A stretch of DNA of 50,497 bases from a virus: positions 1 through 50,497 of the IMG/VR virus record IMGVR_UViG_3300017963_000344; one strand, written 5' to 3'. Under the pieces are notes generated by a model, which saw nothing but the letters and a program-made list of their open reading frames with translations, made no database searches and was not told where the DNA came from. Position numbers and translations under genes: made by a program. Positions 7,690 to 45,517 of the stretch are shown piece after piece (position 1 is the first letter of the stretch; each line of letters starts with the position of its first letter).

Positions 7690-7690
7690 G

Positions 7691-14479: not shown

Positions 14480-14502
14480 ATAGAAGTAGGAGATAATAAC
14501 AA

Positions 14503-25087: not shown

Positions 25088-28000
25088 ATGGGTCTTTCAA
25101 GATTAGATAATTTTCTTAAATCTGTTCGTGGAAATATAATTTATGTAGATCCTAATAGTCTTGATTCAACAGACTCTATTGAAAATCAAGGTAATAGTCT
25201 CACAAGGCCATTTTCTTCAATTCAACGTGCTTTGGTCGAGTCTGCCAGATTTTCGTACCAAAAAGGTCTAAACAACGATAGATTTGGAAAGACCACAATT
25301 CTTGTATTTCCTGGCGATCATTTAATTGATAATAGACCTGGTTGGATTCCTGATTCTCGTTTAGGAACGAATATCTATAGACTTCGCAATGGATCAACAT
25401 CTAATGATTTCCCACCACTTGACCTCACTTCAAGATTTGATTTATCAAACTCTAATAACCAACTTTATAAATTTAATAGTGTTCACGGCGGAGTCATTAT
25501 TCCTCGTGGAACATCTATTATAGGTCTTGACTTGCGCAAGACAAAAATAAGACCACTATATGTTCCAAATCCAACTAACAATAACATAGAGAGATCCTGT
25601 ATCTTTAGGGTTACTGGAGGAAGTTATCTTTGGCAGTTCTCAATGCTTGATGCGGATCCAAATGGAATCTGCTACATTGATTACCTTAATAATACTTTTG
25701 TCCCTAACTTCTCACACCATAAACTAGCGTGTTTTGAATATGCTGATGGTGTAAATCCTGTTGTTATTAATGATACCTTTATTTCAGGAAGCAATGGGAT
25801 TTTTGATCGCACAGATCTTGAGATGTATTATGAGAAAATTGGACTTGCTTATGGTCAGGCATCAGGTCGTGCAATTGAACCTGATTATCCTTCATCAACA
25901 CTCGATATTCAACCAAAAATTGACGAATATCGTATTGTAGGTTCTACTGGAGAAACTACAGGTATCTCAAGTATTCGTGCGGGAAACGGTACAATATCCT
26001 CAAAAATTATTACAGTCACCACCACAACCGCAGTTCCTGGTTTAGATGTAGACACACCATTTAGAATTGAAGGAGTTTCTGGTATAGGGTATAATGGGCA
26101 GTTTGTGGTTAGTGAGAAGTTGAGTGATACTGAACTACAATATCAGGTTCAGAATCCACCAGCAAATCCACTTCCATTAGTTATTAGCGCATCACTTACT
26201 CTCACTAACGATACTGTAACTTCTGCATCACCATATATCTTCAACGTATCTCTGCGTTCTGTTTTTGGTATGTGTGGTCTTCTTGCTGATGGTGCAAAGG
26301 CAACTGGATTTAAGTCAATGGTAGTGGCACAATTTACTGGAATTGGTCTACAAAAAGATGATAATGCTTTTGTCGTTTATAATTCAAGAACTGGAATTTT
26401 TGAAGATAGAACTGTTGCTGGTAATGAGACCATCAGTACAAACTCTAAAGCAATCTTTAAACCAGAATATCGTAACTTTCATATTAAAGCAATCAATGAT
26501 GCGTTCATTCAAAACGTATCAGTGTTCGCAATTGGTTATGCAGAACACTTTTCTGTCGAAAGTGGTGGAGATATGTCCATCACAAACTCCAATTCTAATT
26601 TCGGCGCAAAAGCACTAGTCGCAACGGGATTTAGAAAAACTGCATTTCCTCAAGACGATCAAGGATATATCACTCATATTATTCCACCAAAAGAATTCTC
26701 AAAAGAAGAAACTACAATTGAATTCCATGCAATTGATGTAAATGCAACTGTTGGTGTTGCATCAACTGGAAATCTTTATCTTTATAACCAAACCAATCCT
26801 GATGTTGCTCCCCAGAATGTTATAGAAGGTTATAGAATTGGTGCAAGAGAAAATGATACTCTTAAGGTACTGATTTCATCCGGAGGAACTCCAGTTGAAT
26901 ATAGTGCAAGAATTGTAATGCCAGGTTCACAGACCAGCAGTGAAAAACAATTCTCTGTAGGAAGAAGCAATGTTGGTATCAATAGTATTACTGGTAATAC
27001 AATTACTCTCACTCAACCACATAATCTTGTAAATGGCGAAAGTATTCGTGTGATTAGTAGTAATGGACAACTTCCTGATGGTCTAACGCCAAATGTTGTT
27101 TATTATGCAATCACTTCAGGAATTGGGACAAATCAAGTTAGGATTGCAAAAACTAAAAATGATGCAATTAGTGTAAACCCAATTACTCTTAATAACAGAG
27201 GTGGTAGTTTAAGTATTGTTAGTCGTGTAAGCGATAAGAACCCCGGAGACATTGGAAACCCAGTTCAGTTTGATACTACGAAAGGGCAGTGGTTTATAAG
27301 AGTTGCAACCGCATCTACTGAAAATAATATTTACTCAACAATAGTAAGTCTTGGTTCTGGCGTAATTGGAGAAGCAACCCCAAGAACTTATGTTAATCGT
27401 CTTGCTGATAATCGTAATGCAGTGGATACAATCTATCGCGTTCGTTATGTAATTCCCTCCACATCAAGCGCAAGACCCCCAAGTGATGGATTTATTGTAC
27501 AAGAAAGTAGTACAACTATTGCACCAAATAATACTGAAGTTCAAATTTATTTTGGTACTGGAACACTTACAGATATCAATCAATTAAGAAATCCAAAGTT
27601 TATTGCGAATGCGACTTGGAGTACTAACACTGTAACTATTACATCTGAACTTCCTCACAATCTATCTGTAGGATCTCAAGTTGAAATACTGAATGTAAAG
27701 AGTAGTAATAACACTTCGGCATCAAAAGATGTTGGATTTAATGGAACCTTCACTGTTACATCGATCGCTCATTCGAAGCAATTTACTTATACCCTGACCA
27801 ATAATCCAGGAACATTTACGAGTGATATAACTGCAAGAACAACTGCACTTCCTCACTTTAGAAGAAAGAAATTTAATGATACTTATTACATCTATAAAAC
27901 AGAGGAAGTACAAAAATTTATTGCAGGTGAGCAAGATGGTGTTTACTATCTCACATTAGTCAATGCATCAAATTCTCCGAGTGTTATTCCATTTACTGTA

Positions 28001-30943
28001 GAAAAGTTCACACAGCCAGTCAAAGAACTTTATCCTCAAGTCAATCGTGATAATCCTGTAGCAGATCCAGAAGAAACTAAATCTTTTGCTTCTTCATCAC
28101 TCATTGGCGAAGTTCTAGTTAATGATGTTCGTAACAGCATTACAAAAGAAACAATCAATAAATCTTTTAAGGATAATGATATTGGTATTGGACTGACTGA
28201 TATTCGCTCAACATCCGCAACTAATCATACAATCTTTACTTCATTAGATCACGGATTAAATCGTATTACTCAAGTTTCCATCACAAATCCTGGTGTGGGT
28301 TATGGTCCTGGTGTTCCTGGTGATTACTTTAATGCAACACTGGTAGGTTTTGCAGGTTCAACTGTTGGGCAATATGCGACTGCAAAGGTCACATTAGATG
28401 GTGCAGGAAGCATTAGTGATATTAAGATTATGGATGGTGGTAGTGCTTATGGTATTGGTAATACTCTTACTGTTACTGGCATTGGAACCACATCCGGATT
28501 TAGTTCTGCAGTTATCACAGTTTCCAATGTTTATGATAATGTCGGAGATGTAATTAAGATTGCTGGTGTAACTTCTACCGCATATCAGGTTTATAATAAT
28601 CTCTATCGTATTACTGAAGTTGCTGTAGGATCTGCAAAGAGTTTTAGTGCAATTTCTGCAACTTCAGTTTCTGGCATTTCATCCGCAGTAGGCCCAACAT
28701 TTACTGCAAATGCAATTTCTTATCTAACTGGACAAGCACTTCACGTAAATACATTTAGTTATAATAATGTTACTGGAATTGCAACGATTACTACTCTCAA
28801 TAATCATGGACTAAAGGTAGATAATAAGGTTCGTATTACTGGTGCAAATCAATCTCTTTACAATGGGGAGTTTGTTGTTATCAAGAACATTAGTCTCAAC
28901 TCATTTAATGTAAGAATTGGAGTTTCTACAAGTTCTCCAACTGCAACAGGAACACTTTTTGTTTATCGTGAAGGTCTCACTTCAAATGATGGGATAATCA
29001 CAAGAGACAATGAAAACTTGAACGGTAGAATGATACCAATCTATGCAGGTATCACGACAACATTATCAGCATTAGTTTCTGATGCAATTACCGACCAAAT
29101 TAATGTTTCTAATTCACAAAATCTGGATATTAATGTTGGTGACTATTTAATCATTGATGATGAGATTGTAAGAGTAAAAACAAATACATCAAGTTCTCCA
29201 TCACCAATATTTGTTTTTAGGGGTGTATTAGGTACTCGTGCAACAAATCACATTGATAATAGTGTTGTAAGAAAAATTAGAGTAAATCCAATTGAGTTAA
29301 GAAGACATTCTATTATAAGAGCGTCCGGTCATACTTTTGAGTATGTTGGTTATGGTCCCGGTAATTATTCAACTGCATTTCCAGATAAACAAGATCGCCA
29401 AATTTCCGCACAGGAAAAACTTCTGGCACATTCTACTCGTCAAGAAGGTGGTATAAATTTCTTCACTGGTATGGATGATAGTGGTATTTCTTATGCTGGT
29501 AATAAGAAGTCAAACACTGTTACCGGACAAGAAGAAATTGTTGATATTCCAGTACAAACAGTTACTGGCGAAGATATTGGAAATCTTCCTGGATTAAATA
29601 TAATTACTCCTGTCGAAGGTGACTTTAGTAGATCCATTCGTGTTGGTGGTGGTCCTGATAATAAGGCACTCTCAAAATTCAATGGACCGGTAATCTTCTC
29701 TAATAAAGTTACATCAAATTCTCTGGAAGGAATTGAAGCAAACTCATTATTCTTACAAGGTGATGCATCAGTTTCAAGAAAGTTTACTGTAGGTACTTCA
29801 ATTCCATCTCTTGCAGGTAATCCAGGTGACGTTGTTTATAATGCAGAACCTGATGGCGGAGAAAGTGTTGGTTGGGTTTATACGAGAAACAATAAATGGG
29901 AAAGTTTTGGGCAAATTTCTGTAAATAATGTTCCCATATCTAATACTGTAGATATTCGTTCTGGTGGAACTCTTTTAGGGTCATCTAAAACTATTAACTT
30001 TGTTGGTACTGGTGGTATTACAGTTTCTGGTGCTTATAACTCAACTGCAGGAATTTCAACACTCACATTCAACGCATCCATTACAAGTCCAACACAAATA
30101 TCAGTTTCTGGAATTTCTACTTTTGATGGAGCAACTGTTTTCAATGCCCCAGTTACATTCAATAGTTCAATTAATGCAGGAACAATAAACGCAAGTTCAA
30201 TATTTGCAACTAATATAACATTCACAAATCTCATCGGTCCTTCTATTGGTATCGCAACATTCACTGCTACAAATGCGAATTTTGATGGTAATATTATTCT
30301 TGGAAATACTTCAAAGGCATCTAATACTTTTGTAAGAGTTCTTTCCGGTGATAATCATAATGCTGGATTGGAAGCATATGGTAATTCTCAAGGTACTGGA
30401 TATCTCTTCGTTGGTGAAAGTTCAACTGTAGGTGGTGGTGTATTTTATAACGGCAATGGAATTCCTGCATTTGCAACTGGAGAAACTGCAGATACTGTTG
30501 CATTCTATAGAAAAAACGCAGGAACAAATGAAGTTGTATTCTCCTATCCAAATAATAGTAATAATGTAACTTTTAGAGGTTCAGTTTCTGCATCAAGTTT
30601 TAGTACACCAGGTGGATTAAATGTTGTTGGTGTTATTACTTGTACTGACTTAAACTCAACATCGGACAAAAACTTAAAGTATGATATAAGAAAAGTTGAA
30701 AATTCTATTTCTCTTCTAAATGAGATTAATGGAGTAGAGTTTAAATGGAAATCAAACGATAAACCATCTATTGGTGTAATTGCACAAGAAGTTGAGAAAG
30801 TTCTTCCACAACTTATAAGTTCTGGAGAAGTTAAATCAGTAAACTATAATGGTCTCATTGGCGTACTGATTGAAGCAGTAAAAACCCAACAAACTCAAAT
30901 TGATGAGTTAAATGCCAGAATAGAGAGATTAGAAAACAACTAA
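25088..30943 (+). CDS. Giant fibre/structural protein with C-terminal S74 chaperone (1951 aa)
   Basis: The largest gene of the window. The N-terminal 300 residues (NIIYVDPNSLDSTDSIENQG, then RPFSSIQRALVESARFSYQ) resemble the pectate-lyase-like right-handed beta-helix opening of cyanophage structural proteins. The middle has long repeats of beta-rich 80-100-residue modules, including V-T-I-T-S-x-L-P-H-N-L-type strands and two G-x-G/A-Y motifs. Residues about 1858-1951 form an S74 intramolecular chaperone: SDKNLKYDIRKVEN, then GVIAQEVEKVLPQL, NYNGLIGVLIEAV and a final coiled coil. S74 domains trimerise fibres and then cut themselves off before the Ser. Likely a long tail fibre or a baseplate-attached appendage. 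Confidence 0.85.
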   Translation: MGLSRLDNFLKSVRGNIIYVDPNSLDSTDSIENQGNSLTRPFSSIQRALVESARFSYQKGLNNDRFGKTTILVFPGDHLIDNRPGWIPDSRLGTNIYRLRNGSTSNDFPPLDLTSRFDLSNSNNQLYKFNSVHGGVIIPRGTSIIGLDLRKTKIRPLYVPNPTNNNIERSCIFRVTGGSYLWQFSMLDADPNGICYIDYLNNTFVPNFSHHKLACFEYADGVNPVVINDTFISGSNGIFDRTDLEMYYEKIGLAYGQASGRAIEPDYPSSTLDIQPKIDEYRIVGSTGETTGISSIRAGNGTISSKIITVTTTTAVPGLDVDTPFRIEGVSGIGYNGQFVVSEKLSDTELQYQVQNPPANPLPLVISASLTLTNDTVTSASPYIFNVSLRSVFGMCGLLADGAKATGFKSMVVAQFTGIGLQKDDNAFVVYNSRTGIFEDRTVAGNETISTNSKAIFKPEYRNFHIKAINDAFIQNVSVFAIGYAEHFSVESGGDMSITNSNSNFGAKALVATGFRKTAFPQDDQGYITHIIPPKEFSKEETTIEFHAIDVNATVGVASTGNLYLYNQTNPDVAPQNVIEGYRIGARENDTLKVLISSGGTPVEYSARIVMPGSQTSSEKQFSVGRSNVGINSITGNTITLTQPHNLVNGESIRVISSNGQLPDGLTPNVVYYAITSGIGTNQVRIAKTKNDAISVNPITLNNRGGSLSIVSRVSDKNPGDIGNPVQFDTTKGQWFIRVATASTENNIYSTIVSLGSGVIGEATPRTYVNRLADNRNAVDTIYRVRYVIPSTSSARPPSDGFIVQESSTTIAPNNTEVQIYFGTGTLTDINQLRNPKFIANATWSTNTVTITSELPHNLSVGSQVEILNVKSSNNTSASKDVGFNGTFTVTSIAHSKQFTYTLTNNPGTFTSDITARTTALPHFRRKKFNDTYYIYKTEEVQKFIAGEQDGVYYLTLVNASNSPSVIPFTVEKFTQPVKELYPQVNRDNPVADPEETKSFASSSLIGEVLVNDVRNSITKETINKSFKDNDIGIGLTDIRSTSATNHTIFTSLDHGLNRITQVSITNPGVGYGPGVPGDYFNATLVGFAGSTVGQYATAKVTLDGAGSISDIKIMDGGSAYGIGNTLTVTGIGTTSGFSSAVITVSNVYDNVGDVIKIAGVTSTAYQVYNNLYRITEVAVGSAKSFSAISATSVSGISSAVGPTFTANAISYLTGQALHVNTFSYNNVTGIATITTLNNHGLKVDNKVRITGANQSLYNGEFVVIKNISLNSFNVRIGVSTSSPTATGTLFVYREGLTSNDGIITRDNENLNGRMIPIYAGITTTLSALVSDAITDQINVSNSQNLDINVGDYLIIDDEIVRVKTNTSSSPSPIFVFRGVLGTRATNHIDNSVVRKIRVNPIELRRHSIIRASGHTFEYVGYGPGNYSTAFPDKQDRQISAQEKLLAHSTRQEGGINFFTGMDDSGISYAGNKKSNTVTGQEEIVDIPVQTVTGEDIGNLPGLNIITPVEGDFSRSIRVGGGPDNKALSKFNGPVIFSNKVTSNSLEGIEANSLFLQGDASVSRKFTVGTSIPSLAGNPGDVVYNAEPDGGESVGWVYTRNNKWESFGQISVNNVPISNTVDIRSGGTLLGSSKTINFVGTGGITVSGAYNSTAGISTLTFNASITSPTQISVSGISTFDGATVFNAPVTFNSSINAGTINASSIFATNITFTNLIGPSIGIATFTATNANFDGNIILGNTSKASNTFVRVLSGDNHNAGLEAYGNSQGTGYLFVGESSTVGGGVFYNGNGIPAFATGETADTVAFYRKNAGTNEVVFSYPNNSNNVTFRGSVSASSFSTPGGLNVVGVITCTDLNSTSDKNLKYDIRKVENSISLLNEINGVEFKWKSNDKPSIGVIAQEVEKVLPQLISSGEVKSVNYNGLIGVLIEAVKTQQTQIDELNARIERLENN

Positions 30944-33861: not shown

Positions 33862-34197
33862 ATGGCCGGCGCACTAGCACTTAATACATATAAAACAGTT
33901 AGAGCAAATGTAACTACAGGTATTACAACCGTATATACTGCTCCCAGTGGAGTTTCTTCAATTCATTTATTTTCTGCAGTATCTAATATTTCTTCCGGAA
34001 TTGCAACAGTAACTGTTTTTCACGAACGAAATGGTGATGCTTATGAACTAATTAAAAATTCAAAAATTCCTGCAACTGATGTATTAAATCCAATTGGGGG
34101 AAGTTTAGTATTAGAAGTTGGAGATAAAATTCAAGTACAAGGTAGTGCTAATAGTGCGATGAAATTTACATTAAGTATCTTGGAGTCTGCAAAGTAA
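33862..34197 (+). CDS. Small structural protein (111 aa)
   Basis: A 111-residue protein with a Thr/Val-rich beta-sandwich-like pattern (TTGITTVYTAPSGVSSIHLF, VTVFHERNGDAYELIKNSKI, LEVGDKIQVQGSANSAMKFT). It starts one base after the preceding stop and ends four bases before the collagen-like fibre gene. Such small beta proteins lie between fibre genes in cyanophages and could be a head-tail or fibre-attachment accessory; the exact role is not known. Confidence 0.7.
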   Translation: MAGALALNTYKTVRANVTTGITTVYTAPSGVSSIHLFSAVSNISSGIATVTVFHERNGDAYELIKNSKIPATDVLNPIGGSLVLEVGDKIQVQGSANSAMKFTLSILESAK

Positions 34198-34201
34198 GTA
34201 A

Positions 34202-36433
34202 ATGGCAACTTTAAATAGTGGACAAGTTATTGGTGCAGACGGACAGTTTATATCTCTTGAAAGTGTAGAGAGGTATCTTGGTGTTCCTGATGAGAATGGA
34301 AAGGTACTTGCATCTAATACTGATGGAACACGATATTGGGTCCCAGTAGGTGCTCAAGGTGCTCAAGGATTTCAGGGTGCCCAAGGATTTCAGGGAGTAC
34401 AAGGTGCTCAAGGTGCTCAAGGAGTTCAAGGTAGTGCAGGGACATCAGTTACTATTGTTGGTTCAGTTCCAAATGTAGGGGCCAATCCACAAACAGTATT
34501 AAATGCAGCATTTCCTACAGCAGTAGCAGGTAATGGTGTTATTGATATTGCAACTGGAAATCTATGGGTTTATGATGGTGCCCTTTGGAGTAATGTAGGA
34601 AAAATCGTAGGGCCTCAAGGACCTCAAGGACCTCAAGGAGTCCAGGGTGCTCAAGGAGTCCAGGGTGCTCAAGGTGCCCAAGGAGTTCAAGGTGGTTCTG
34701 GTTCTCAAGGTATTGTTGGATCTCAAGGTGCCCAAGGAGTCCAGGGTTCAGTAGGAGTCCAAGGAGTTCAAGGTGCTCAAGGAGTACAAGGTGCCCAAGG
34801 AGTTCAGGGTGCCCAAGGTGGTTCTGGTTCTCAAGGTATTGTTGGATCTCAAGGTGCCCAAGGAGTCCAGGGTTCAGTAGGAGTCCAAGGAGTTCAGGGT
34901 GCCCAAGGAGTTCAGGGTGCCCAAGGAGTTCAGGGTGCCCAAGGAGTTCAGGGTGCTGCCAGTACCGTTCCAGGACCTCAAGGTGCCCAAGGAGTTCAAG
35001 GTAGTGCAGGAACATCAGTTACCATTGTTGGTTCAGTTCCAAATGTAGGGGCCAATCCACAAACAGTATTAAATGCGGCATTTCCTACAGCTTCAACAGG
35101 TAATGGTGTTATTGATATTGCAACTGGAAATCTATGGGTTTATGATGGTGCCCTTTGGAGTAATGTAGGAAAAATCGTAGGGCCTCAAGGACCTCAAGGA
35201 GTTCAGGGTGCTCAAGGAGTCCAGGGTGCTCAAGGAGTTCAGGGTGCTCAAGGAGTCCAGGGAGCAACAGGTACTCAAGGCATCTTAGGCGCTCAAGGTT
35301 CCATTGGTTCTCAAGGTGCTCAAGGTGCTCAAGGAGTCCAGGGTGCTCAAGGAGTACAAGGTGCTGAAGGTGCTCAAGGAGTTCAAGGTGGTTCTGGTTC
35401 TCAAGGTATTGTTGGATCTCAAGGTGCCCAAGGAGTCCAAGGTTCTCAAGGAGTTCAGGGTGCCCAAGGAGTTCAGGGTGCCCAAGGAGTACAAGGTGCT
35501 CAAGGAGTTCAGGGTGCTCAAGGAGTTCAGGGTGCTCAAGGTTTTCAAGGTAGTACAGGAACATCAGTTACTATTATTGGTTCAGTTCCGAATGTAGGCG
35601 CCAATCCACAAACAACATTAAATGCTGCATTTCCTACAGCAGCAGCAGGTAATGGTGTTATTGATACTGAAACTGGAAATCTATGGGTTTATGATGGATC
35701 TTTTTGGGGCAATGTAGGGAAAATCGTAGGGCCTCAAGGACCTCAAGGACCTCAAGGAGTTCAAGGAGCTCAAGGAGCACAGGGAGTTCAGGGCGATCAA
35801 GGGGCTTCCAGCACCGTTCCAGGACCTCAAGGCGCTCAAGGTGTCCAAGGTGCTCAAGGTGTTCAAGGTTCTGTTGGTCTCAATGGTGGTACAGGACCAT
35901 CAGGAGCCCAGGGTGCTCCAGGACCTCAAGGTGCTCAAGGTGTTCAAGGTTCTAATGGTTCTCAAGGTGTACAAGGTGCCGTAGGTGCTGGTGGACCTGC
36001 AACAGTTATAAATGCAGCATCAATCACTACAGACGCAACATACTATCCAGTATTTGTTGCAGGAACCGGTGATCGAACACCAAGCATAAGAGATACAGCA
36101 ACTGCATTTAGTTTTAATCCTTCTACAGGAACTCTTACTGTTGGTGGTGATTTAAACTCTGGATCCGATAAGAGACTAAAAGAAAATATTGAAACTATTG
36201 AAAATGCTCTTGAGACTATTGAAAATCTTCGTGGTGTAAGATTTAACTGGAAGGAAAGTGGAAGACCATCTCTGGGTGTGATTGCACAAGAACTAGAAGA
36301 AGTAATTCCAGAACTTGTAAGTGGTGATGAGAATAAAACTGTAACTTATAATGGTTTGATTGCTGTTGTGATTGAAGCACTTAAAGAACTCAAAGAAAGA
36401 GTTGAAGTATTAGAACAAAATTCTAAATACTAA
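34202..36433 (+). CDS. Collagen-like tail fibre with S74 chaperone (743 aa)
   Basis: A short N-terminal attachment segment (about 1-50) is followed by Gly-x-Gln/Val collagen-type triplets, mostly GAQ and GVQ, in several blocks to about residue 600. Three near-identical globular modules of about 60 residues interrupt them (TSVTIVGSVPNVGANPQT, then GNGVIDIATGNLWVYDG). The C-terminal 90 residues are an S74 domain: SDKRLKENIETIEN, GVIAQELEEVIPEL, TYNGLIAVVIEAL and a coiled coil. Such triplets form triple helices without hydroxyproline in phage fibres. The DNA repeats are long and similar, so copy number may vary between strains. Confidence 0.9.
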   Translation: MATLNSGQVIGADGQFISLESVERYLGVPDENGKVLASNTDGTRYWVPVGAQGAQGFQGAQGFQGVQGAQGAQGVQGSAGTSVTIVGSVPNVGANPQTVLNAAFPTAVAGNGVIDIATGNLWVYDGALWSNVGKIVGPQGPQGPQGVQGAQGVQGAQGAQGVQGGSGSQGIVGSQGAQGVQGSVGVQGVQGAQGVQGAQGVQGAQGGSGSQGIVGSQGAQGVQGSVGVQGVQGAQGVQGAQGVQGAQGVQGAASTVPGPQGAQGVQGSAGTSVTIVGSVPNVGANPQTVLNAAFPTASTGNGVIDIATGNLWVYDGALWSNVGKIVGPQGPQGVQGAQGVQGAQGVQGAQGVQGATGTQGILGAQGSIGSQGAQGAQGVQGAQGVQGAEGAQGVQGGSGSQGIVGSQGAQGVQGSQGVQGAQGVQGAQGVQGAQGVQGAQGVQGAQGFQGSTGTSVTIIGSVPNVGANPQTTLNAAFPTAAAGNGVIDTETGNLWVYDGSFWGNVGKIVGPQGPQGPQGVQGAQGAQGVQGDQGASSTVPGPQGAQGVQGAQGVQGSVGLNGGTGPSGAQGAPGPQGAQGVQGSNGSQGVQGAVGAGGPATVINAASITTDATYYPVFVAGTGDRTPSIRDTATAFSFNPSTGTLTVGGDLNSGSDKRLKENIETIENALETIENLRGVRFNWKESGRPSLGVIAQELEEVIPELVSGDENKTVTYNGLIAVVIEALKELKERVEVLEQNSKY
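34340..35990 (+). repeat. Collagen-like triplet repeats and three ~190-base module repeats
   Basis: Units close to GGTGCCCAAGGAGTTCAG are repeated dozens of times. Embedded are three modules starting near 34431, 35001 and 35550, spaced 570 and about 550 bases, that are nearly identical in DNA. A larger segment with GGTTCTGGTTCTCAAGG is present near 34690, 34815 and 35387. The high DNA identity points to recent duplication or recombination. Confidence 0.88.
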
Positions 36434-36448
36434 TATAAGGAGAAATCA

Positions 36449-37741
36449 ATGTCTATAACAAGAAACCGAGAACTATCACAATTTGGGTCTTTCATTTACA
36501 TTGATAATACGACAGAAAGTATTGGTATTACATCTGGTACAATTCCTTTTGTTGGTATTGGAACTACAAATCCAACAGTAAAATTCCATGTTGTTGGCGA
36601 TACAAATCTTGAAGGTAATGTAAATATTACAAATGGAACTCTTGACGCATCTTCTTATAGTTTAAATGGAAATCCTTTAGTTGATGTAACAGTTCTTCAA
36701 TGGAACTATGCGTCTAATGGTACTGACATGTACTATTTACCAGGAAATGTAGCAATTGGAACATCAGTTATTTCGCAAAGACTGACTGTATTGGGTAATG
36801 TTTCTGCAGGTCAGTTTATCTCTACAGTTACCTCAGGAACTGCACCATTCGTTGTTCTATCGGACACACAAGTTACAAATCTCAATGCATCATTCTTAAG
36901 AGGTAAACTACCTCCTACTGGTGATATTATAGGAACCACAGATACTCAAACTCTTACCAATAAGACACTAACTTCTCCTACTATTAATGGAGGAAGTTTT
37001 AGTTCTTCAGGTATTACTCTTAACGGTTCAACATCAGGATCAACAGTACTTCAGGCATCTGCAGTTGCCTCCGGATCATTAATACTTCCCGCAACAACTG
37101 ATACAATAGTAGCAAGAAATACAACAGATACGCTTACTAATAAAACAATTTCTACAGGTTCTAATACTATTACAGGACTGACGAATACCAACCTATCGGG
37201 TACTGCTGGTATTACAAATGCAAATCTTGCAAACTCTACGATTTCTGGAGTTTCACTTGGTGGAAGTTTAAATGCACTCTCTTTCGGTTCTTATTTAACT
37301 TCTGCTGGTTCTTATAATGGTTCTACTGCAAGAACTGTTTCTGTTGCAGGAACAACAATCAATACTGGAAATACATTAGTTGCAAGAGATATTAGTGGAG
37401 ACTTCACTGCTGGTACGATTACTGTAACAAATCTTACCGCATCCCAAACAATTCAAGCACAAGATTTTAATTCTATCAGTGATATAAATCTTAAAGAAAA
37501 CATTCATACTATAGAAAACTCATTAGAAATTGTAAAAAATTTAAGAGGAGTTTCATTTGACTGGAAAGAAAACGGTAAAAGTTCTTATGGTGTGATTGCT
37601 CAAGAACTTGAAGAAATCCTACCAGACCTTGTGACAAATGGTGAAGTTAAATCAGTGAATTATAATGGTTTGATTGGAGTTCTTATAGAAGCAGTGAAAG
37701 AGTTGAGTGAAGAAGTTAAAGAACTTAAAAGATATAAATAA
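36449..37741 (+). CDS. Tail fibre protein with S74 chaperone (430 aa)
   Basis: A clear AAGGAG site precedes the ATG. The N-terminal part (RNRELSQFGSFIYIDNTTES, then VGIGTTNPTVKFHVVGD) is a fibre opening; the middle has T-L-T-N-K-T-L-T-S-P-T repeats, which are widespread in phage fibres, and a SLGGSLNALSFGSYLTSAGS beta-region. The C-terminal 90 residues are an S74 domain with SDINLKENIHTIEN, GVIAQELEEILPDL and NYNGLIGVLIEAV. The last codons overlap a TATAAATA late promoter for the next operon. It lies just before the DGR and may build the fibre that carries the diversified tip. Confidence 0.85.
   Translation: MSITRNRELSQFGSFIYIDNTTESIGITSGTIPFVGIGTTNPTVKFHVVGDTNLEGNVNITNGTLDASSYSLNGNPLVDVTVLQWNYASNGTDMYYLPGNVAIGTSVISQRLTVLGNVSAGQFISTVTSGTAPFVVLSDTQVTNLNASFLRGKLPPTGDIIGTTDTQTLTNKTLTSPTINGGSFSSSGITLNGSTSGSTVLQASAVASGSLILPATTDTIVARNTTDTLTNKTISTGSNTITGLTNTNLSGTAGITNANLANSTISGVSLGGSLNALSFGSYLTSAGSYNGSTARTVSVAGTTINTGNTLVARDISGDFTAGTITVTNLTASQTIQAQDFNSISDINLKENIHTIENSLEIVKNLRGVSFDWKENGKSSYGVIAQELEEILPDLVTNGEVKSVNYNGLIGVLIEAVKELSEEVKELKRYK
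37733..37740 (+). promoter_or_regulatory. Exact T4 late promoter in front of the DGR operon
   Basis: TATAAATA, an exact late-promoter core, overlaps the end and stop of the preceding fibre gene and lies about 73 bases upstream of the first gene of the DGR operon. It suggests that target, avd and perhaps TR and RT are made late, with tail proteins. Confidence 0.6.
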
Positions 37742-37813
37742 CTTATAGTTATACCGAGTGGAGACACGAAGATGGTAAAGGAGAAAGTCTTTTACATTAT
37801 GAGGGAGTGGTAA

Positions 37814-38167
37814 ATGGCCATTCAAATTTCAGGAACTACTGTTATTGATAATGATAGAAATTTAGTGAATGCCGGTAGGATTTATACGACTGTTACTAAT
37901 AATCAAACCACAAGTAGGACATCACTTAATCCATTAACTAATCGTGAGTTTGTGAGTGTGACCACTGCAGGTCTTACAATGACTCTTCCTGCATCACCAG
38001 CAGCAGGATGGGAAGTTGCAATACAAGTTGGAAACTTTACGAATACCGTGATTGGAAGAAATGGACAGAATATTATGTCTGATCCAACAGATATGACGAT
38101 TGATGTTGCGAACAGAACAGTAAATTTAGTTTTCACAGACGCCACTAGAGGCTGGAGAGTAGTATGA
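37814..38167 (+). CDS. Small fibre-like protein coupled to the DGR target (117 aa)
   Basis: A 117-residue protein starting MAIQISGTTVIDNDRNLVNA, an opening found in many cyanophage fibre proteins. The rest is beta-rich (TTAGLTMTLPASPAAGWEVA, then NRTVNLVFTDATRGWRVV) and resembles a phage fibre-tip or neck domain. The stop overlaps the ATG of the diversified target gene (ATGA), so the two proteins are translated together, likely in equal amounts. It may be the scaffold that anchors the variable lectin-type protein to the tail. This is an inference from the overlap. Confidence 0.75.
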   Translation: MAIQISGTTVIDNDRNLVNAGRIYTTVTNNQTTSRTSLNPLTNREFVSVTTAGLTMTLPASPAAGWEVAIQVGNFTNTVIGRNGQNIMSDPTDMTIDVANRTVNLVFTDATRGWRVV

Positions 38168-38583
38168 GTACCTTAAGTCAGTTTTTTCTTTCAAGACCAA
38201 CAGTAGCAGATAATACGCCAGATGGTAGAATTAGTATTGAAGGTGGGTGGTATATTTGTAGAGGTCCTGTAGGAACTGCATGGATTGTTGCGTCCTTAAA
38301 CACAGAGGTCTCAAGAACCTGGTACTGTAGAAACGATGCAACCACAACAGCAAATGCATGTACAGGATGTACCGGATGGTTTGTACCTACAAGAGTACAA
38401 CTCCAGAATCCAGGATACACTTGTAGGCAATATTGGGACTCATTCTCCCCCCCTTACTACTGGAGTAGTACAGAGGCCAATGCTTTTCTCGCTTGCTTCG
38501 TGTACTTTACTTCTGGTAGCGCGAACAACGCCGCCAAGAATGGCACGTACTGTGTTCGTGCCTTCAGGTGTGTGACTTATTGA
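38164..38583 (+). CDS. DGR target: variable C-type-lectin/DUF1566-like protein (139 aa)
   Basis: A 139-residue protein whose C-terminal third is the variable repeat. The order GGWYICRGPVGTAWIVA, GWFVPTRVQLQNPG, YYWSSTE, then CVRAFRCV is that of the DUF1566/formylglycine-enzyme-like CLec fold, a common target fold of diversity-generating retroelements. Variable residues lie between YWSSTE (about residue 99-104) and VRAFR (about 131-135), where the ligand-binding loops of this fold are. Several Cys residues may form disulfides. The VR ends nine bases before the stop codon. As a tail protein, it most likely binds a host surface receptor. Confidence 0.9.
   Translation: MSTLSQFFLSRPTVADNTPDGRISIEGGWYICRGPVGTAWIVASLNTEVSRTWYCRNDATTTANACTGCTGWFVPTRVQLQNPGYTCRQYWDSFSPPYYWSSTEANAFLACFVYFTSGSANNAAKNGTYCVRAFRCVTY
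38439..38572 (+). repeat. DGR variable repeat (VR)
   Basis: This 134-base segment aligns without gaps to 39123-39256 at an offset of exactly 684 bases (divisible by three, so reading frames agree). By hand I count 24 differences: 22 lie at template adenines and two do not (VR 38449 C for template T; VR 38486 T for template C). All four bases are found at changed positions. The last 18 bases before the variable end (38551-38568) are identical and match the expected initiation site for retrohoming. Confidence 0.95.
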
Positions 38584-38586
38584 ATT

Positions 38587-38612
38587 TTGTACTTTGTAAC
38601 TTGTACTTTGTA
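38587..38612 (+). repeat. 12-base direct repeat just downstream of the DGR target
   Basis: TTGTACTTTGTA occurs at 38587-38598 and again at 38601-38612, two bases apart. In the Bordetella DGR a structured element just behind the VR improves retrohoming; here a direct repeat rather than a clear inverted repeat is seen, so any such role is a guess. Confidence 0.6.
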
Positions 38613-38633
38613 CCCGATTTTTTTTAAAGTATT

Positions 38634-38966
38634 ATGGTAGAAGAACTTCAAATATACCGAGATGCAAGTGAACTTATCAAACGAGTATTCATCATCGTCA
38701 AACAATTCCCTAGAGATTATAAGTTTACTATAGGAACAAGAATACAAAACACTGCTCTTGATTGCATAGACCTGATATATAAAGCATCAAGACACAAAAA
38801 CAAAAGAGAAGACTTGGATAATCTTGTTGCATCTCTAGATTTTCTTTCGTATCTCATTCGTATTTCTAAAGATATGAATATAGTAACAGAAAAACAATAT
38901 GGTCTTTTTATTGAGAAAAGTGTTCCTTGCGTCAAACAAGCATCAGGATGGTTAAAAGCAGCATAA
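38634..38966 (+). CDS. avd: Avd, DGR accessory protein (110 aa)
   Basis: A 110-residue basic all-helical protein of the size and pattern of Avd: YRDASELIKRVFIIVKQFPR, YKFTIGTRIQNTALDCIDLI, then SLDFLSYLIRISKDMNIV and a final SVPCVKQASGWLKA. The sequence follows the four-helix-bundle (S23/Avd) pattern of F/P-x-x-x-K/R-x-T-x-G-x-R-x-x-x. Avd forms a barrel-like pentamer that binds the reverse transcriptase and TR RNA and is needed for mutagenic retrohoming. Its place between target and TR is the classical order. The ribosome site is weak (AAAG). Confidence 0.88.
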   Translation: MVEELQIYRDASELIKRVFIIVKQFPRDYKFTIGTRIQNTALDCIDLIYKASRHKNKREDLDNLVASLDFLSYLIRISKDMNIVTEKQYGLFIEKSVPCVKQASGWLKAA

Positions 38967-38969
38967 ATA
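38962..38969 (+). promoter_or_regulatory. Possible late promoter for the template RNA (CATAAATA)
   Basis: CATAAATA overlaps the avd stop and lies about 154 bases upstream of the TR. It matches NATAAATA and could give the template RNA and RT their own late transcript. One octamer is weak evidence. Confidence 0.4.
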
Positions 38970-38972
38970 ATA

Positions 38973-39113
38973 ATGTCGTTCATAATGAGCAGAATATTGT
39001 TTCTTTACGAGACAGTAGCGAACTCAATCCACGCGATTTCTATGCCTTATAAAGGTAGAAGTTCTAGATTTACTCCAGAACACTCTTTCCCTAAAAGAAA
39101 GACTTGTGATTAG
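38973..39113 (+). CDS. Possible small frame in the TR leader (46 aa)
   Basis: An ATG-started frame of 46 residues (MSFIMSRILFLYETVANSIH, then basic, ending KRKTCD) lies between avd and TR and stops ten bases before it. It has no recognisable family and no good ribosome site. The stretch may simply be the non-coding leader of the TR RNA. I list it with low confidence so that the 297-base gap is described. Confidence 0.22.
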   Translation: MSFIMSRILFLYETVANSIHAISMPYKGRSSRFTPEHSFPKRKTCD

Positions 39114-39122
39114 AAATCAGTC

Positions 39123-39256
39123 CTCATTCTCCTCCACTAACTACTGGAGTAGTACAGAGACCAATGCTACTAACGCTTACAACGTGAACTTTAATAATGG
39201 TAACGCGAACAACAACAACAAGAATAACACGAACTGTGTTCGTGCCTTCAGGAGTG
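39123..39256 (+). repeat. DGR template repeat (TR)
   Basis: A non-coding copy of the VR with 46 adenines by my count in 134 bases. Read in the target frame it has 15 Asn codons (AAC/AAT), the codon that gives the most amino-acid choices when adenines are changed; 11 of these 15 codons differ in the VR. It is placed 156 bases after avd and just before the RT, the usual order. The TR would be transcribed, copied with random changes at A, and used to overwrite the VR. Confidence 0.95.
39250..39254 (+). promoter_or_regulatory. Ribosome-binding site of the RT, located inside the TR end
   Basis: AGGAG at 39250-39254 lies nine bases upstream of the GTG start of the RT and inside the 3' end of the TR. 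The matching VR site reads AGGTG because one adenine was changed. Confidence 0.6.
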
Positions 39257-39263
39257 GAAAGTT

Positions 39264-40295
39264 GTGAACGACATCACATTTGAGGAAGTCATAATTGCTT
39301 ATTATGACTGCAGAAGAAATAAAAGAAATACAAGTCAGCAATTAAAATTTGAGTTTCATTTAGAGAATAATCTCTGGAACTTATATGAAGAACTTAAGAA
39401 CGAAACATTTACTCCAAGTTCTCATTTATTTTTTATTATTACCAAACCAAAACCGAGAGAAGTCTGGGCAGCAGAGTTTAGGGACAGAATAGTTCGCCAT
39501 TTGATTTACAACAGAACTTATTATATTGAAAAAGATTATATCTCAACAACTTATGCCTGCTTAAGAAATCGTGGAACTCTTCAGTGTGCAAGAGACGTAC
39601 AAAAGTCCTTAAGAAACTTATGGAAATATAAGGATGATTATCGTATTCTTCACGTAGATATAGCAAACTTCTTTGTTTCTATTGATAAGAACCAGATTAA
39701 AAAAGATTTATATCCAAAGATTAACAATGAAACTACTATTAAACTTTTAGAACTCTTCATCAATCAAAATCCAACAGAGAAATATTACTATAAAGGAAGA
39801 CCAAAATTAAGAAAACTCATACCAGATAGAAAGTCTTTGTTTGATAAACCATCAGGATTACCCATTGGAAATCTTACATCTCAAATCTTCGCAAATCATT
39901 ACCTCAACAACTTTGATTGGTACTGCAAGAATGAGATTACTGAACACTATTTTAGATATATGGATGATATGTTGTTTCTGGTTCATAAAGACCAGAAGAT
40001 TTCTCAAGTAATACAGAAGGTAAATGATTATCTGGAAACTCTAAATATGAAACTCAACCCTTGCAAAACAACTCACAACAAGTTAGGATATGGTAGGAAC
40101 TTCTGTGGTTATATCATTAAACCATTCTCAATATACATAAGAAACTCAACTAAACAAAGAGCAAAGTTTGCAACAGAACCACAATCCATCAACTCTTATT
40201 ATGGAATGATGAGACATATCAACTGCTACAACTTAAGAAAATCTATTGCTTTGAGAAATGATCTAAATATGGTAAAATATGAGAAACTTGCTTGA
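39264..40295 (+). CDS. DGR reverse transcriptase (343 aa)
   Basis: A 343-residue RT, a usual length for DGR enzymes. Motif A is VDIANFFVSID (catalytic Asp near residue 132), motif B GLPIGNLTSQIFANHYLNNFD (about 198-218) with the IGxxxSQ form that marks DGR RTs, unlike QGxxxSP of retroviral enzymes, and motif C RYMDDML with the catalytic YMDD at 232-235. A C-terminal thumb part follows (NPCKTTHNKLGYGRNFCGYI). The start is GTG, overlapping as GTGA the stop of the TR reading frame. It copies TR RNA with errors at adenine. Group II intron and retron features are not seen. Confidence 0.96.
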   Translation: MNDITFEEVIIAYYDCRRNKRNTSQQLKFEFHLENNLWNLYEELKNETFTPSSHLFFIITKPKPREVWAAEFRDRIVRHLIYNRTYYIEKDYISTTYACLRNRGTLQCARDVQKSLRNLWKYKDDYRILHVDIANFFVSIDKNQIKKDLYPKINNETTIKLLELFINQNPTEKYYYKGRPKLRKLIPDRKSLFDKPSGLPIGNLTSQIFANHYLNNFDWYCKNEITEHYFRYMDDMLFLVHKDQKISQVIQKVNDYLETLNMKLNPCKTTHNKLGYGRNFCGYIIKPFSIYIRNSTKQRAKFATEPQSINSYYGMMRHINCYNLRKSIALRNDLNMVKYEKLA

Positions 40296-40929: not shown

Positions 40930-41901
40930 ATGATTGAGTTTGATGATTTTTCCAAACCCTCAATGGGTGGAACTGAAATAATAAAACACGGATTACAAAA
41001 TAGATTACCACAAGAACTTTTGAGTAAGTTCCAGATTATTTGTGACCGGATTATTATGATTGATGAAACCAAGATAAGATTATTCTGGGCACATAATACT
41101 CCTTATCAACTCAACAACTCTCATTTAGAAAATGGTGGTTGGAAAAAGTTTCATAAGATGATTTTTATTTCTCATCATCAAATGGAAGAGTATGTAAGAG
41201 AATATAACATTTCTTATTCTCATTGTGTGGTAATGAAATACGCACTGGAACCTATAAAACCACAGAAGAAACCAGAGAATAAGATTTCACTGATTTATAC
41301 CTCTACTCCTCATCGTGGTCTGGATATTCTTGTAAATGTCTTTGATAAACTTTGTGAAGAGTATGATAATATAGAACTCAAAATTCACTCTTCTTATAAC
41401 ATCTATGCAATGAAAGAAAGACAAGAGAACTATGAGAAAACACCTTTGTATCAAAGAATGGAGAAACATCCAAACATCAAAAATATTGGTTATGTTTCTA
41501 ATGAAGAACTCAAGAAATCATTAGCATCATCTCATATCTTTCCTTATCCTTCTACATATCGGGAGACCTTTTGTTTAGCACTTTTAGAAGCAATGAGTGC
41601 TGGTCTCTTATGTGTTCATCCAAACTATGCTTGTTTACCAGAAACTGCATCAAACTGGACAATGATGTATGATTATCACGAGAACAAAGAAGTTCACGAA
41701 GAAATCTTTTATGAGCATCTTAAAAAAGCAATAGATAGTGTAAATGATAAAAAAGTTCAAAGAAAACTTAAGTATCAATCAAAGTATGTAAATAATTTTT
41801 ATAGTTGGGAAACAAAAACTCAAGAATGGATTGATTTGTTAAAGTCATTAGAACACTTAAATCCCAAAATTCCAAAAAATATTTCTTTTAGTTATTCATA
41901 A
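40930..41901 (+). CDS. GT4-type (GT-B) glycosyltransferase (323 aa)
   Basis: A 323-residue GT-B fold enzyme. Features are an N-terminal acceptor domain with MGGTEIIKHGLQNRLP, a linker with ISLIYTSTPHRGLDILVNVF, and the donor-binding GT4 pattern IGYVSNEELKKSLASSHIFP followed by YPSTYRETFCLALLEAMSAG with the E-x7-E of this family near 205-215. It would transfer a sugar from a nucleotide-sugar to a host or phage glycan. It lies three bases after the oxygenase gene. Confidence 0.85.
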   Translation: MIEFDDFSKPSMGGTEIIKHGLQNRLPQELLSKFQIICDRIIMIDETKIRLFWAHNTPYQLNNSHLENGGWKKFHKMIFISHHQMEEYVREYNISYSHCVVMKYALEPIKPQKKPENKISLIYTSTPHRGLDILVNVFDKLCEEYDNIELKIHSSYNIYAMKERQENYEKTPLYQRMEKHPNIKNIGYVSNEELKKSLASSHIFPYPSTYRETFCLALLEAMSAGLLCVHPNYACLPETASNWTMMYDYHENKEVHEEIFYEHLKKAIDSVNDKKVQRKLKYQSKYVNNFYSWETKTQEWIDLLKSLEHLNPKIPKNISFSYS

Positions 41902-41902
41902 T

Positions 41903-42736
41903 ATGAAATCCTACTACTTCATCTCCGGACTTCCAAGGTCAGGTTCTACATTACTTTCTGGTATTCTTAAACAAAACCCAGACTTCTATGCTGATATTGC
42001 ATCACCAGTAGAAGCACTCACAGGAACCTCAATAGATTTGATTACAAGTACTGAAAGCAACCTCAATATCGCAGAAGACCAAAGAAAAAATATAATGTAT
42101 GGGATTTTTGATGGTTACTATAAACACATAGAGAAACCAGTCATCTTTGATAGTTCAAGAGGTTGGACAAAGAAAACAAACTTTCTAAAAGCACTCTTTC
42201 CTGATACAAAAATTTTATGTCCGGTAAGAGATATTGTTTCTATTCTTAACTCCTTTGAGGTGATTACATCTAAAAATCCATTTCATACCAAGACACTTAC
42301 AGAACATAAGGATAATGTGTTTTCAAGATGTGATGGTATGATGGATAGAAATGGTGGTATTGTTGCAGGACCTTGGATACTACTTCAAGAAGGTTATGCA
42401 CTTAATCCAAAAATGATTATGTTGATTGAGTATGAGAACCTATGCAAAACTCCAGAGAAGACAATGAGAGAAGTGTATGAGTTTCTGGAGAGACCTTATT
42501 ATTCTCACGACTTTGAGAATGTAGAATACTCCAATGAGAACTTTGATAAGGCTTGTAATCTCAAAGACCTTCATACAGTCAAGAAAAAAGTGGAGTATAA
42601 CCCTCCAAGATGTATTCTACCTCCAGAAATCGTCAAGAAATATAAAGAAATGAATATGGAGTTCTGGAAAGAAGGGCACAAAATTGATGCTGATATTATT
42701 GAAAAATTAGATAAGAAGTTTATTGAATACAAATGA
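41903..42736 (+). CDS. Sulfotransferase (277 aa)
   Basis: A 277-residue protein with the PAPS-binding P-loop-like motif SGLPRSGSTLLSGIL at about residues 8-22 and the 3'-phosphate site KILCPVRDIVSILNSFE near 104-120, both hallmarks of the sulfotransferase superfamily. It would move sulfate from PAPS to a sugar or to a protein tyrosine. A sulfotransferase in a phage, between glycosyltransferases, suggests sulfated glycans. The 3' end overlaps the next gene by four bases. Confidence 0.87.
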   Translation: MKSYYFISGLPRSGSTLLSGILKQNPDFYADIASPVEALTGTSIDLITSTESNLNIAEDQRKNIMYGIFDGYYKHIEKPVIFDSSRGWTKKTNFLKALFPDTKILCPVRDIVSILNSFEVITSKNPFHTKTLTEHKDNVFSRCDGMMDRNGGIVAGPWILLQEGYALNPKMIMLIEYENLCKTPEKTMREVYEFLERPYYSHDFENVEYSNENFDKACNLKDLHTVKKKVEYNPPRCILPPEIVKKYKEMNMEFWKEGHKIDADIIEKLDKKFIEYK

Positions 42737-43548
42737 AACTAGAAATCATCTTAAGAATACACGATGAGCAAAATATACACGGAGACAAACCAAGATATAT
42801 TGATGTTCCCAAAAAAGACTTGATACTTGGTTGTTTATCTTCTTTGATTAACTCTGCAAATGTTGTTACAAATGCAGAGATTTCTTTTATTGTTCTCAAT
42901 GACCACTGCACGAATGATTGTATTTCTAAAGTGCATAAAATCTTTAATCACTCAAAACACCCATATCAACTTATAGATTTAGAAGTTCCTGGATTTCGCC
43001 ATAGTGGTCTTAAGCAGTTTGAGTATTGTAAGAACTCAACTGCTGATTTAGTATACTCTGTAGAAGATGATTACCTTCATTGTACAGAAGCAATCCAAGA
43101 AATGTTATTTACTTATGAATACTTAAAGTCTTATTATCATCTACAAAAAGAACTTTGTTTATTTCCTTTTGATAATACAGAAGACTATGAACTACAAAAT
43201 ATGTTTCCCGGAAGATTGTTTAGAACTCCAATAAGACACTGGAAAGAAGGAATATGGACTACTTTTACAATGATGACGACACCTAAAGTTTTCCAAGACC
43301 ACTGGAAAGTCTTTGAGAAACTTGCATCTCAATATACTCCTTGGGATGGAATAGACCCAATAAAAGAACTGGTTCATGAAGGAAATACCATCTCAAATAT
43401 CTGGGAACATTATGTAACTCGTGTAAATCCTGTACCTTCTCTTGCTCTTCACATTCAGTTTGAGAAGCAACGAGACCCTCATATTCACCACCTGGACTGG
43501 TGGAATAAATACTCAAAACTCAAATCATTTGGAGTGACTTATGACTGA
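42733..43548 (+). CDS. GT-A type glycosyltransferase-like protein (271 aa)
   Basis: A 271-residue protein with a GT-A fold pattern: N-terminal ISFIVLNDHCTNDCISKVHK, and the metal-binding acidic cluster LVYSVEDDYLHCTEAIQEML near residues 107-126, which stands for the DxD motif of inverting family 2-like enzymes. It resembles the gene at 43797 (both have EDDYLH). It is coupled to the sulfotransferase by an ATGA overlap. Substrate unknown. Confidence 0.7.
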   Translation: MKLEIILRIHDEQNIHGDKPRYIDVPKKDLILGCLSSLINSANVVTNAEISFIVLNDHCTNDCISKVHKIFNHSKHPYQLIDLEVPGFRHSGLKQFEYCKNSTADLVYSVEDDYLHCTEAIQEMLFTYEYLKSYYHLQKELCLFPFDNTEDYELQNMFPGRLFRTPIRHWKEGIWTTFTMMTTPKVFQDHWKVFEKLASQYTPWDGIDPIKELVHEGNTISNIWEHYVTRVNPVPSLALHIQFEKQRDPHIHHLDWWNKYSKLKSFGVTYD

Positions 43549-43813
43549 AAAACCTGTAAGAAGATATGAACTTTGTACTGAAAGACTTGAAACACTTGAA
43601 GATGTAAAGAAAGTCCTAAAAGCACTAAAAATAAGAATAGATACTGATAATCCACTTTATGAAGAACTTGAGTACTATTTCTCAACAGAAGTGGTTCCTC
43701 TGGGATATTTAAAAGTATATGAAAAAGTTGGTGATAAAATTTATGAAATGAGTATGGAAGAAATCGCACAACTGGGAAGTGAACTTTTAAATCAAAATGA
43801 AGAAACCAATTGA
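43541..43813 (+). CDS. Hypothetical protein between the two GT-A genes (90 aa)
   Basis: A 90-residue charged helical protein (RRYELCTERLETLEDVKKVL, then LYEELEYYFSTEVVPLGYLK). It overlaps both neighbours, by eight bases upstream and 17 downstream, and so is firmly within the glycan operon. No motif is known to me. Small helical proteins of this kind can act as a partner subunit, but there is no direct sign of that. Confidence 0.65.
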   Translation: MTEKPVRRYELCTERLETLEDVKKVLKALKIRIDTDNPLYEELEYYFSTEVVPLGYLKVYEKVGDKIYEMSMEEIAQLGSELLNQNEETN

Positions 43814-44561
43814 AGTATTTTTAAGACATTGTTATTACTCAAAGTTACAAGAACTTCCAGACAGAACAAGACCACAATGGTTCAATAAGATTAAAGTCTT
43901 TGAGAACTTTAAGAATACACTTAACCCAGACCTTGTAAACTATACGATTGTTTATGATGAGTTTTATGGTAGTATTGATAAGACCTTTCTATCACAAGAA
44001 AAGAATGTAGAAATTATCAAATGCGGAAGTGAGACTGATAGTTTTCTTTCCACATTAGACATCATTCAATCAAAAAACTTAAGTGATGATACGATTGTTT
44101 ATTTGTTAGAAGATGATTATCTACACCGCCCAAGATGGTTTGAGATAATGTTAGAAGGATTTAGCATTAACTCTCATTACCTCACTCTATATGACTTTGA
44201 TTTCTTTATTGCGAAAGGATACTTATGTGAAATCTTTGCAACTCCAAGTTCTCATTGGAGAGCAGTACCAGCAACAACCAATACCTTTGCTTGTAAATAT
44301 AAGACTTTATTAGAAGACTTGGAAATACATCAAAAATATTCTGTAGATGGGGTAAAAGAAGAAGAGGGGTTTCATTATTCTAAAGATTATGATAAGTTCT
44401 GGGAACTTCAGCAACAACATAAGTATCTTATTTCGCCAATGCCTGGTTGGAGTACTCATTGTGATGCAAATCACATTAGTCCTGTGATAGACTGGAGACA
44501 AGTTATGAATAATGAAAATATTAAAGAACAATCAAAATCATTTGAACTAAACTATAAATGA
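43797..44561 (+). CDS. Second GT-A type glycosyltransferase-like protein (254 aa)
   Basis: A 254-residue protein that shares with the 42733 gene the VYLLEDDYLHRPRWFEIMLE cluster near residues 101-120, the likely metal site of a GT-A glycosyltransferase, and a C-terminal domain with ATPSSHWRAVPATTNTFAC. The two may be old paralogues or successive enzymes in one glycan. Its stop overlaps the next gene (ATGA). Confidence 0.68.
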   Translation: MKKPIEVFLRHCYYSKLQELPDRTRPQWFNKIKVFENFKNTLNPDLVNYTIVYDEFYGSIDKTFLSQEKNVEIIKCGSETDSFLSTLDIIQSKNLSDDTIVYLLEDDYLHRPRWFEIMLEGFSINSHYLTLYDFDFFIAKGYLCEIFATPSSHWRAVPATTNTFACKYKTLLEDLEIHQKYSVDGVKEEEGFHYSKDYDKFWELQQQHKYLISPMPGWSTHCDANHISPVIDWRQVMNNENIKEQSKSFELNYK

Positions 44562-45517
44562 CTACAATTATCTCATTAGACGGTGGACTTGGAAGAATAA
44601 TCACAGCAATTCCAGCACTTCTCAAATATTCCAAGAATCATCCAGACGAAGAATGGTACATAATGATTCCTGGATGGGACTTTGTAACCTGGGGACTTCC
44701 AGAACTACAAGAAAAAACCTTTAATCCTGATGCAAAAGGTTCATTTGATTTATTCTGGAAAGCATACCAAGTAATCTCACCAGAACCTTATCGTCTTCCT
44801 GCATATTATCGTAATGAGATTTCATTAAGAGAGGCATTTGATGTCTGTATCAATAACTCAACAGACCATCAAGACCTTCCTCCAATGAAACTGAACATCT
44901 CAACTCCAGAGAAGAGAAAAGCATTTGAAATCATAGAGAAAGCAAAATCAAAACATAAGAAATCAAAGACGATTGTAATACAACCTTATGGTTCTACTGC
45001 AACTCCACATCCTTCTGGTATTTTTGATGATAGTTTAAGGTCTATTCCAAAACCAATGTTGGATTACTTTATCAAAGAACTCTCAAAGGATTATAATTTA
45101 ATCTTTATGGGAGCAAAGGAGTTTCACGACATAAGAACTTATAAACCAGATCCAGATCCAAACTTAAGAGAATGGTCTGCAATTATAGGTGCTGCCGATT
45201 ACTTTGTTGGTTGTGATAGTTGCGGTCAACATATCTGTAAGGCACTGAATAAAAAGGCATCAGTTGTGATTGCAGGAACTCATCGGGTCAATGTGACTTA
45301 TGATGGTTTTCATATTATTGAGAGGGATGTAAAGTTTTATCCGGATTCAATGAGAATATCAGGTTTCCAAGCACATATGTCTTCACGACTGAATGAACCA
45401 AGAATTGAGTTTACACAAGAAGAAATAGAAACTTCATATCAAGACATCATCAAAAACATAGAAGGAGATAAGAAACCAGAAGTAATAGAAAAACCAAAAA
45501 ATATTAACTATGGTTGA
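44558..45517 (+). CDS. GT9-like (heptosyltransferase-type) glycosyltransferase (319 aa)
   Basis: A 319-residue protein. The N-terminus LDGGLGRIITAIPALLKYSK is the GLGDxxxxxP-type opening of the GT9 family of LPS heptosyltransferases. Near residue 217 lies ADYFVGCDSCGQHICKALNK followed by VVIAGTH, which corresponds to the GT9 motif D-S-G-x-x-H-x-x-x-A-L. The known enzymes add heptose or other sugars to LPS core. It supports an outer-membrane glycan as a target of the island. Confidence 0.78.
   Translation: MTTIISLDGGLGRIITAIPALLKYSKNHPDEEWYIMIPGWDFVTWGLPELQEKTFNPDAKGSFDLFWKAYQVISPEPYRLPAYYRNEISLREAFDVCINNSTDHQDLPPMKLNISTPEKRKAFEIIEKAKSKHKKSKTIVIQPYGSTATPHPSGIFDDSLRSIPKPMLDYFIKELSKDYNLIFMGAKEFHDIRTYKPDPDPNLREWSAIIGAADYFVGCDSCGQHICKALNKKASVVIAGTHRVNVTYDGFHIIERDVKFYPDSMRISGFQAHMSSRLNEPRIEFTQEEIETSYQDIIKNIEGDKKPEVIEKPKNINYG

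Follow-up and report, generated by a model that had tools for sequence, protein, structure and literature searches.

A complete diversity-generating retroelement (DGR) was identified in the tail fiber region of a phage contig, consisting of a target gene with a variable repeat (VR), avd, a template repeat (TR) and a reverse transcriptase (RT). The element very probably lies between the tail fiber and 2OG-Fe(II) oxygenase genes of a T4-like cyanophage and carries out TR-templated mutagenesis of the VR of a lectin-like, likely receptor-binding target. The DNA analyzed, referred to here as the window, is the linear virus contig of IMG/VR record IMGVR_UViG_3300017963_000344 (50,497 bases).

The DGR cassette

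The features of the cassette and the gene preceding it are as follows.

36449-37741, tail fiber ORF preceding the cassette
37814-38167, + strand, 117-aa ORF, probable tail fiber-type partner or attachment piece (phrog_31104, 2.9e-11; tail fiber phrog_892, 4e-4)
38164-38583, + strand, DGR target gene, 139 aa, lectin-like (Lcl C-terminal type; Pfam Lcl_C 4.3e-5, below cut-off)
38439-38572, + strand, VR, 134 nt, ungapped against the TR
38551-38583, + strand, IMH-like conserved 3' end of VR and gene, 33 nt, shared with the targets of contig L206
38634-38966, + strand, avd, accessory variability determinant (Pfam bAvd 2.5e-18; PHROG "Avd protein of DGR" 9.5e-24)
38971-39122, + strand, predicted structured RNA domain 5' of the TR
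39123-39256, + strand, TR, 46 adenines, approximately 15 AAC/AAT codons in the target frame
39264-40295, + strand, DGR RT, 343 aa, GTG start 7 nt after the TR (RVT_1 2.8e-12; phrog_1423 2e-79)

A preliminary description of this DNA had already proposed a complete DGR, and its parts are recognized by Pfam, PHROGs and repeat alignment. The RT has the motifs that were then reported as IGxxxSQ and YMDD (IGNLTSQ and YMDD), and every ORF of the cassette and all of the RT motifs are intact. The start of the cassette was however misplaced at 37733, which falls in the last codons of the fiber ORF; the true start is 37814 or 38164, the 117-aa ORF and the target ORF overlapping by 4 nt. The matches of the avd and RT products to NCBIfam are below cut-off, that of the avd product to DivGenRetAVD scoring 9.3e-18. 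The best solved relative of the RT is that of phage BPP-1 (8ub7, 5e-28), with the next structure at 1e-8.

A single offset (684) brings the TR and VR into a gap-free alignment of 134 nt with 24 mismatches, 22 of which are at TR adenines, with all three other bases used as replacements (T 9, G 7, C 6), in agreement with the earlier hand count. With 46 adenines among the 134 bases of the TR, the hypergeometric probability of such a bias is 1.5e-10. The repeat pair is unique in the region, offset 684 scoring 86 and the runner-up offset 10. Each of the 24 differences affects the first or second position of a target codon, and two of them are at non-adenine template positions. At position 38569 (A/T), one of the 22, the VR is unlike the TR in nearly all relatives and usually has T, for which reason it is probably a fixed IMH/IMH* marker and not a mutation. 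The VR stops 11 nt short of the end of the target gene, and the 33-nt end spanning both is identical in two of the L206 targets, with a single change in the third. This end, which differs from that of the TR in the window, is a candidate for the IMH role.

Going by the known DGR mechanism, RT and Avd would bind the TR transcript, with the RT misincorporating opposite template adenines. With the conserved IMH-like end as its guide, the mutated cDNA would then take the place of the VR at the target's 3' end, and the TR would stay unchanged. Since the template adenines are mostly in AAC/AAT codons, the outcome would be amino-acid changes in the lectin-like fold, from which new adsorption specificities could arise.

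Host phage and genomic setting

The window phage appears to be a relative of T4-like viruses that infect marine cyanobacteria, and its assignment as a T4-like cyanophage is supported by fiber homology, gene order and tRNA order, as had been proposed at the outset. Its large tail fiber (25088-30943) shares approximately 60% identity over 83% of its length with those of Synechococcus phages S-SM2, Bellamy and SynMITS9220M01, and a 1278-aa virion protein also matches S-SM2. A tRNA-Leu and a tRNA-Thr occur upstream of the large fiber, as in S-SM2 and Bellamy, and the tail module of the window is homologous and syntenic with that of Kyanoviridae. Neither psbA nor a T4-like portal was found within the 50-kb fragment. 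psbA is present in the 125-kb record of relative L004 (88% identity to cyanophage S-CAM8), and a T4 portal, with Synechococcus phages as its nearest matches, in the record of relative L049. A pelagiphage origin, suggested by the top blastn hit of the window, was ruled out by the fiber, psbA and portal comparisons.

In the window, the fiber genes extend to 37741, the DGR occupies 37814-40295 and the 2OG-Fe(II) oxygenase begins at 40303. In S-SM2, which also has a 2OG-Fe(II) oxygenase gene immediately 3' of its fibers, the tail fiber (34045-36804) is followed directly by the oxygenase (36881-37501) with no cassette at the junction, thus making this phage the cassette-free counterpart of the window. 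S-SM2, Bellamy and SynMITS9220M01, all Kyanoviridae, share the tail fiber module and the tRNA-Leu/tRNA-Thr arrangement with the window but, unlike it, are without a DGR.

Among the neighboring genes, 34202-36433 encodes a 743-aa fiber protein that consists mainly of GXQ repeats of collagen type and ends in an S74 intramolecular chaperone. A run of genes 3' of the oxygenase (40930-45517), mostly retained in relatives, includes a glycosyltransferase and a sulfotransferase-like protein (the latter recognized by eye). The products of this run may modify virion or host sugars.

Related loci and the RT tree

Relatives were gathered by scans of IMG/VR. L001 belongs to the same population as the window, with 3 differences in 13.5 kb. 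RT identity to the window is 90% for L002 and 87% for L003, 73-74% for the pairs L004/L008 (identical to each other) and L005/L006 (one difference in 11.6 kb), 66% for L048, 64% for L007 and 63% for L049, then falling to approximately 40%. In a tree of 55 RTs, constructed without a non-DGR outgroup, the cyanophage RTs form a clade (support 100/100) nested in one of 41 members (100/99) together with those of Burkholderia phage Magia and Shewanella phage QDWS, while the RT of BPP-1 lies on the other side. The window RT is placed among loci that carry TR/VR pairs, so that it groups with DGR enzymes as the preliminary description had anticipated. A search for a close bacterial donor found none, the best matches having 37-42% identity and being mostly Patescibacteria, and the Patescibacteria loci tested yielded no TR/VR pair.

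The target protein

Lcl_C of Pfam, which we take to be the former DUF1566, was recovered in nine of ten members of the target family, with the matches of single members below cut-off. DUF1566 has reportedly been treated in connection with DGRs in two earlier papers (PMC4159848 and PMC6642488). A profile of the family matched the C-terminal domain of Legionella Lcl (PDB 8q4e) at 2.6e-13. The AlphaFold model of the window target was poor (pLDDT 49), and its Foldseek ranking gives a faint hint of a lectin-type fold. No match to the target was found among sequenced phage records. The N-termini of the targets vary among relatives: those of L004 and L005 have a MAIxIS..TVIDN start fused to the lectin, and in the window a similar start sits on the separate 117-aa ORF.

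From the neighboring genes, the product of the target gene would be attached to the tail, most likely as its receptor-binding tip. It is nevertheless conceivable, though unlikely, that a working DGR acts here on a decoy or another surface protein of the virion or infected cell. The target is short with no recognizable tail domain, and the targets of L007, L048 and L206 are found among glycosyltransferase genes rather than beside fibers. Against this, the window target immediately follows tail fiber genes, its counterparts in L004 and L005 are fused to the fiber-like start described above, and tail proteins make up most of the DGR targets in phages (PMC8144416).

Diversification across related genomes

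When the TR/VR differences of seven genomes were pooled (L003 excluded), 181 of the 187 were at template adenines, which account for 388 of the 1174 template bases. L004 and L005, whose RT genes share 92% identity, have TRs identical at 122 of 124 positions and VRs that agree at 98 of 124. Adenines common to both templates account for 24 of the 26 sites at which the VRs differ, and the other 2 occur where the TRs themselves differ. This pattern of adenine-matched VR variants with a near-constant TR, put forward earlier as the sign of activity to be sought in metagenomic reads, was thus found here by comparison of related genomes instead of reads. The VRs of the window and L002 differ at 36 positions, 24 of which match adenines common to both templates. 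Several non-adenine differences between the two TRs also reappear in the VR belonging to the respective genome, as would be expected if each VR is rewritten from its own TR.

A single TR in L048 is associated with three targets, a tandem pair upstream of avd (777-1247 and 1343-1813) and a third 5.5 kb beyond the TR (7654-8142), with all differences at adenines (20/20, 15/15 and 18/18; 53/53). The tandem targets differ from one another at 22 of 134 VR positions, all of them template adenines, versus 27 of 386 positions outside. L007 has a target 3' of its RT (2079-2561) with 13 of 13 differences at adenines. The distal L048 target and that of L007 follow a glycosyltransferase-like gene, in about the same place as two of the L206 targets, which suggests a second conserved target site.

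The L206 contig (20.3 kb) has three Lcl-type targets (7585-8004, 8053-8508 and 14205-14621, the third being L281), one of which occupies the site of the window DGR, directly before the 2OG-Fe(II) oxygenase. No avd, TR or RT was found on this contig; either loss of the DGR or its action from another genomic location would account for this. In L003, 9 of 21 TR/VR differences are at template adenines; its TR (7860-7992) is adenine-poor (33/133) with many non-adenine differences from the VR, the RT is intact, and the template looks to have decayed or been rewritten.

Slightly less probable than a target outside the receptor-binding tip is that the DGR, although intact in appearance, is inactive, its VR having been diversified in the past and now being fixed. 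Such a reading could draw on the VRs being identical within each near-identical pair of contigs (window/L001, L004/L008 and L005/L006), on the two non-adenine mismatches of the window and on the decay of L003. However, each of these pairs may be one population, with minority variants hidden by assembly, all of the ORFs and RT motifs are intact, and the TRs are far better conserved than the VRs, as seen for L004 and L005. The DGR of the window is regarded as probably working, and we infer its present activity and its effect on host range, the latter corresponding to the "host-range system" of the preliminary description. Chance, or ordinary gene duplication with unrelated mutation, has a negligible probability and is refuted by the adenine bias being seen in independent genomes, with p of 1.5e-10 for the window and values as low as 1e-14 for its relatives. 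The constant linkage of avd, TR and RT and the place of the RT among DGR enzymes also speak against it.

A structured RNA between avd and TR

For the approximately 150 nt between avd and the TR, a consensus fold was obtained in which 15 of the 35 pairs show compensatory changes and a helix immediately 5' of the TR (39035-39043 with 39110-39118) closes the structure. In this fold, 97.1% of the cells are paired, compared to 86.3% when shuffled and 35-51% with the partners slid. No match to this RNA was present in Rfam, and its covariance model finds members of the clade only (7). A scan for the conserved CATAATGAGCAGAAT block returned 52 loci, near a rough chance estimate, among which the covariance model gave no new copy. 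We do not claim an RNA element 3' of the TR within the RT gene, the excess of identical codons at the start of the gene being slight (O/E 1.12, p ~0.04-0.1) and the covariation term being -0.05.

The TR-RT gap of the window is 7 nt, so that a structured spacer of the BPP-1 type between TR and RT is absent. Members of the wider RT side-clade have the TR 0-81 nt upstream of the RT, in most cases <30 nt, and a long avd-TR spacer, whereas loci tested on the BPP-1 side of the tree have TR-RT distances of 124-277 nt or a TR 3' of the RT. Three sets of avd-TR spacers from the side-clade gave 23, 5 and 15 compensatory pairs versus 8.9, 1.5 and 8.0 in shuffles, values that kinship can inflate. Loci L050-L116 comprise three more DGR groups in which the avd-TR spacer looks structured and the TR abuts the RT; it is possible that these spacers represent a family of DGR RNAs outside Rfam.

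The 5' position of the RNA, the reverse of that in BPP-1, was unexpected and, as far as the predicted folds indicate, is shared by several other DGR groups; a structured RNA 5' rather than 3' of the TR is probably special to this RT side-clade. The TR-RT spacer of BPP-1 recruits and primes the RT (PMC12875486), a function that the 5' domain would take over. We propose tentatively, with somewhat less than even confidence, a DGR lineage made up of the cyanophage clade and Pseudomonas-, Burkholderia- and Shewanella-type phages, in which a 5' RNA domain closed by a helix before the TR replaces the RT-recruiting and priming 3' spacer, and in which one TR serves one to three receptor-type genes in cyanophages.

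Comparison with known DGRs

DGRs of phages are well known in general. That of BPP-1 (mtd, avd, TR, brt) has the same order of target, avd, TR and RT as the window, adenine-specific TR/VR differences, 134-nt repeats, a VR at the 3' end of a gene beside tail fibers, and Avd with a related RT. It differs in that the RTs share 31% identity and lie on opposite sides of the tree, and in that its TR directly follows avd and is separated from brt by a 144-nt spacer, while the window has a 152-nt structured spacer before the TR and a 7-nt gap to the RT. The window target is kin to the Legionella Lcl domain and was not found through similarity to BPP-1 Mtd.

The nearest isolates are Magia, QDWS and Pseudomonas phages (RT 36-39%, Avd 27-35%), whose DGRs belong to the same RT side-clade with the TR abutting the RT. 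Unlike the window phage, these have siphovirus-size genomes (40-56 kb), infect heterotrophs and possess an unrelated backbone, and their avd-TR RNA does not match the cyanophage RNA model. Across all sequenced phage records, including 512 with a psbA match, no member of the window clade was found, the best RT identity being 38.7%, and no cyanophage was among the 23 Avd matches.

No report of a cyanophage DGR was found in the literature searched (freely accessible papers, without their supplements). The main text of a large survey using thousands of DGRs names neither a cyanophage nor a myovirus and describes DGRs as rarely detected in open-ocean samples (PMC8144416), although contigs of the window clade may already be in the tables of that survey. 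While DGRs as such are known in phages, the isolate collections and literature searched support, short of proof, the earlier suggestion that their occurrence in T4-like cyanophages is new.

If the reading of the 5' domain is true, the assembly and priming of these DGRs would differ from the solved BPP-1 system, and the layout would provide a second RNA organization for DGRs to be compared with it. T4-like cyanophages rank with the best-studied of environmental viruses. With regard to how their host range shifts, a targeted hypermutation system next to the tail fibers would be a specific and testable source of adsorption variants, and would account for the much faster variation of some tip genes relative to the remaining genome.
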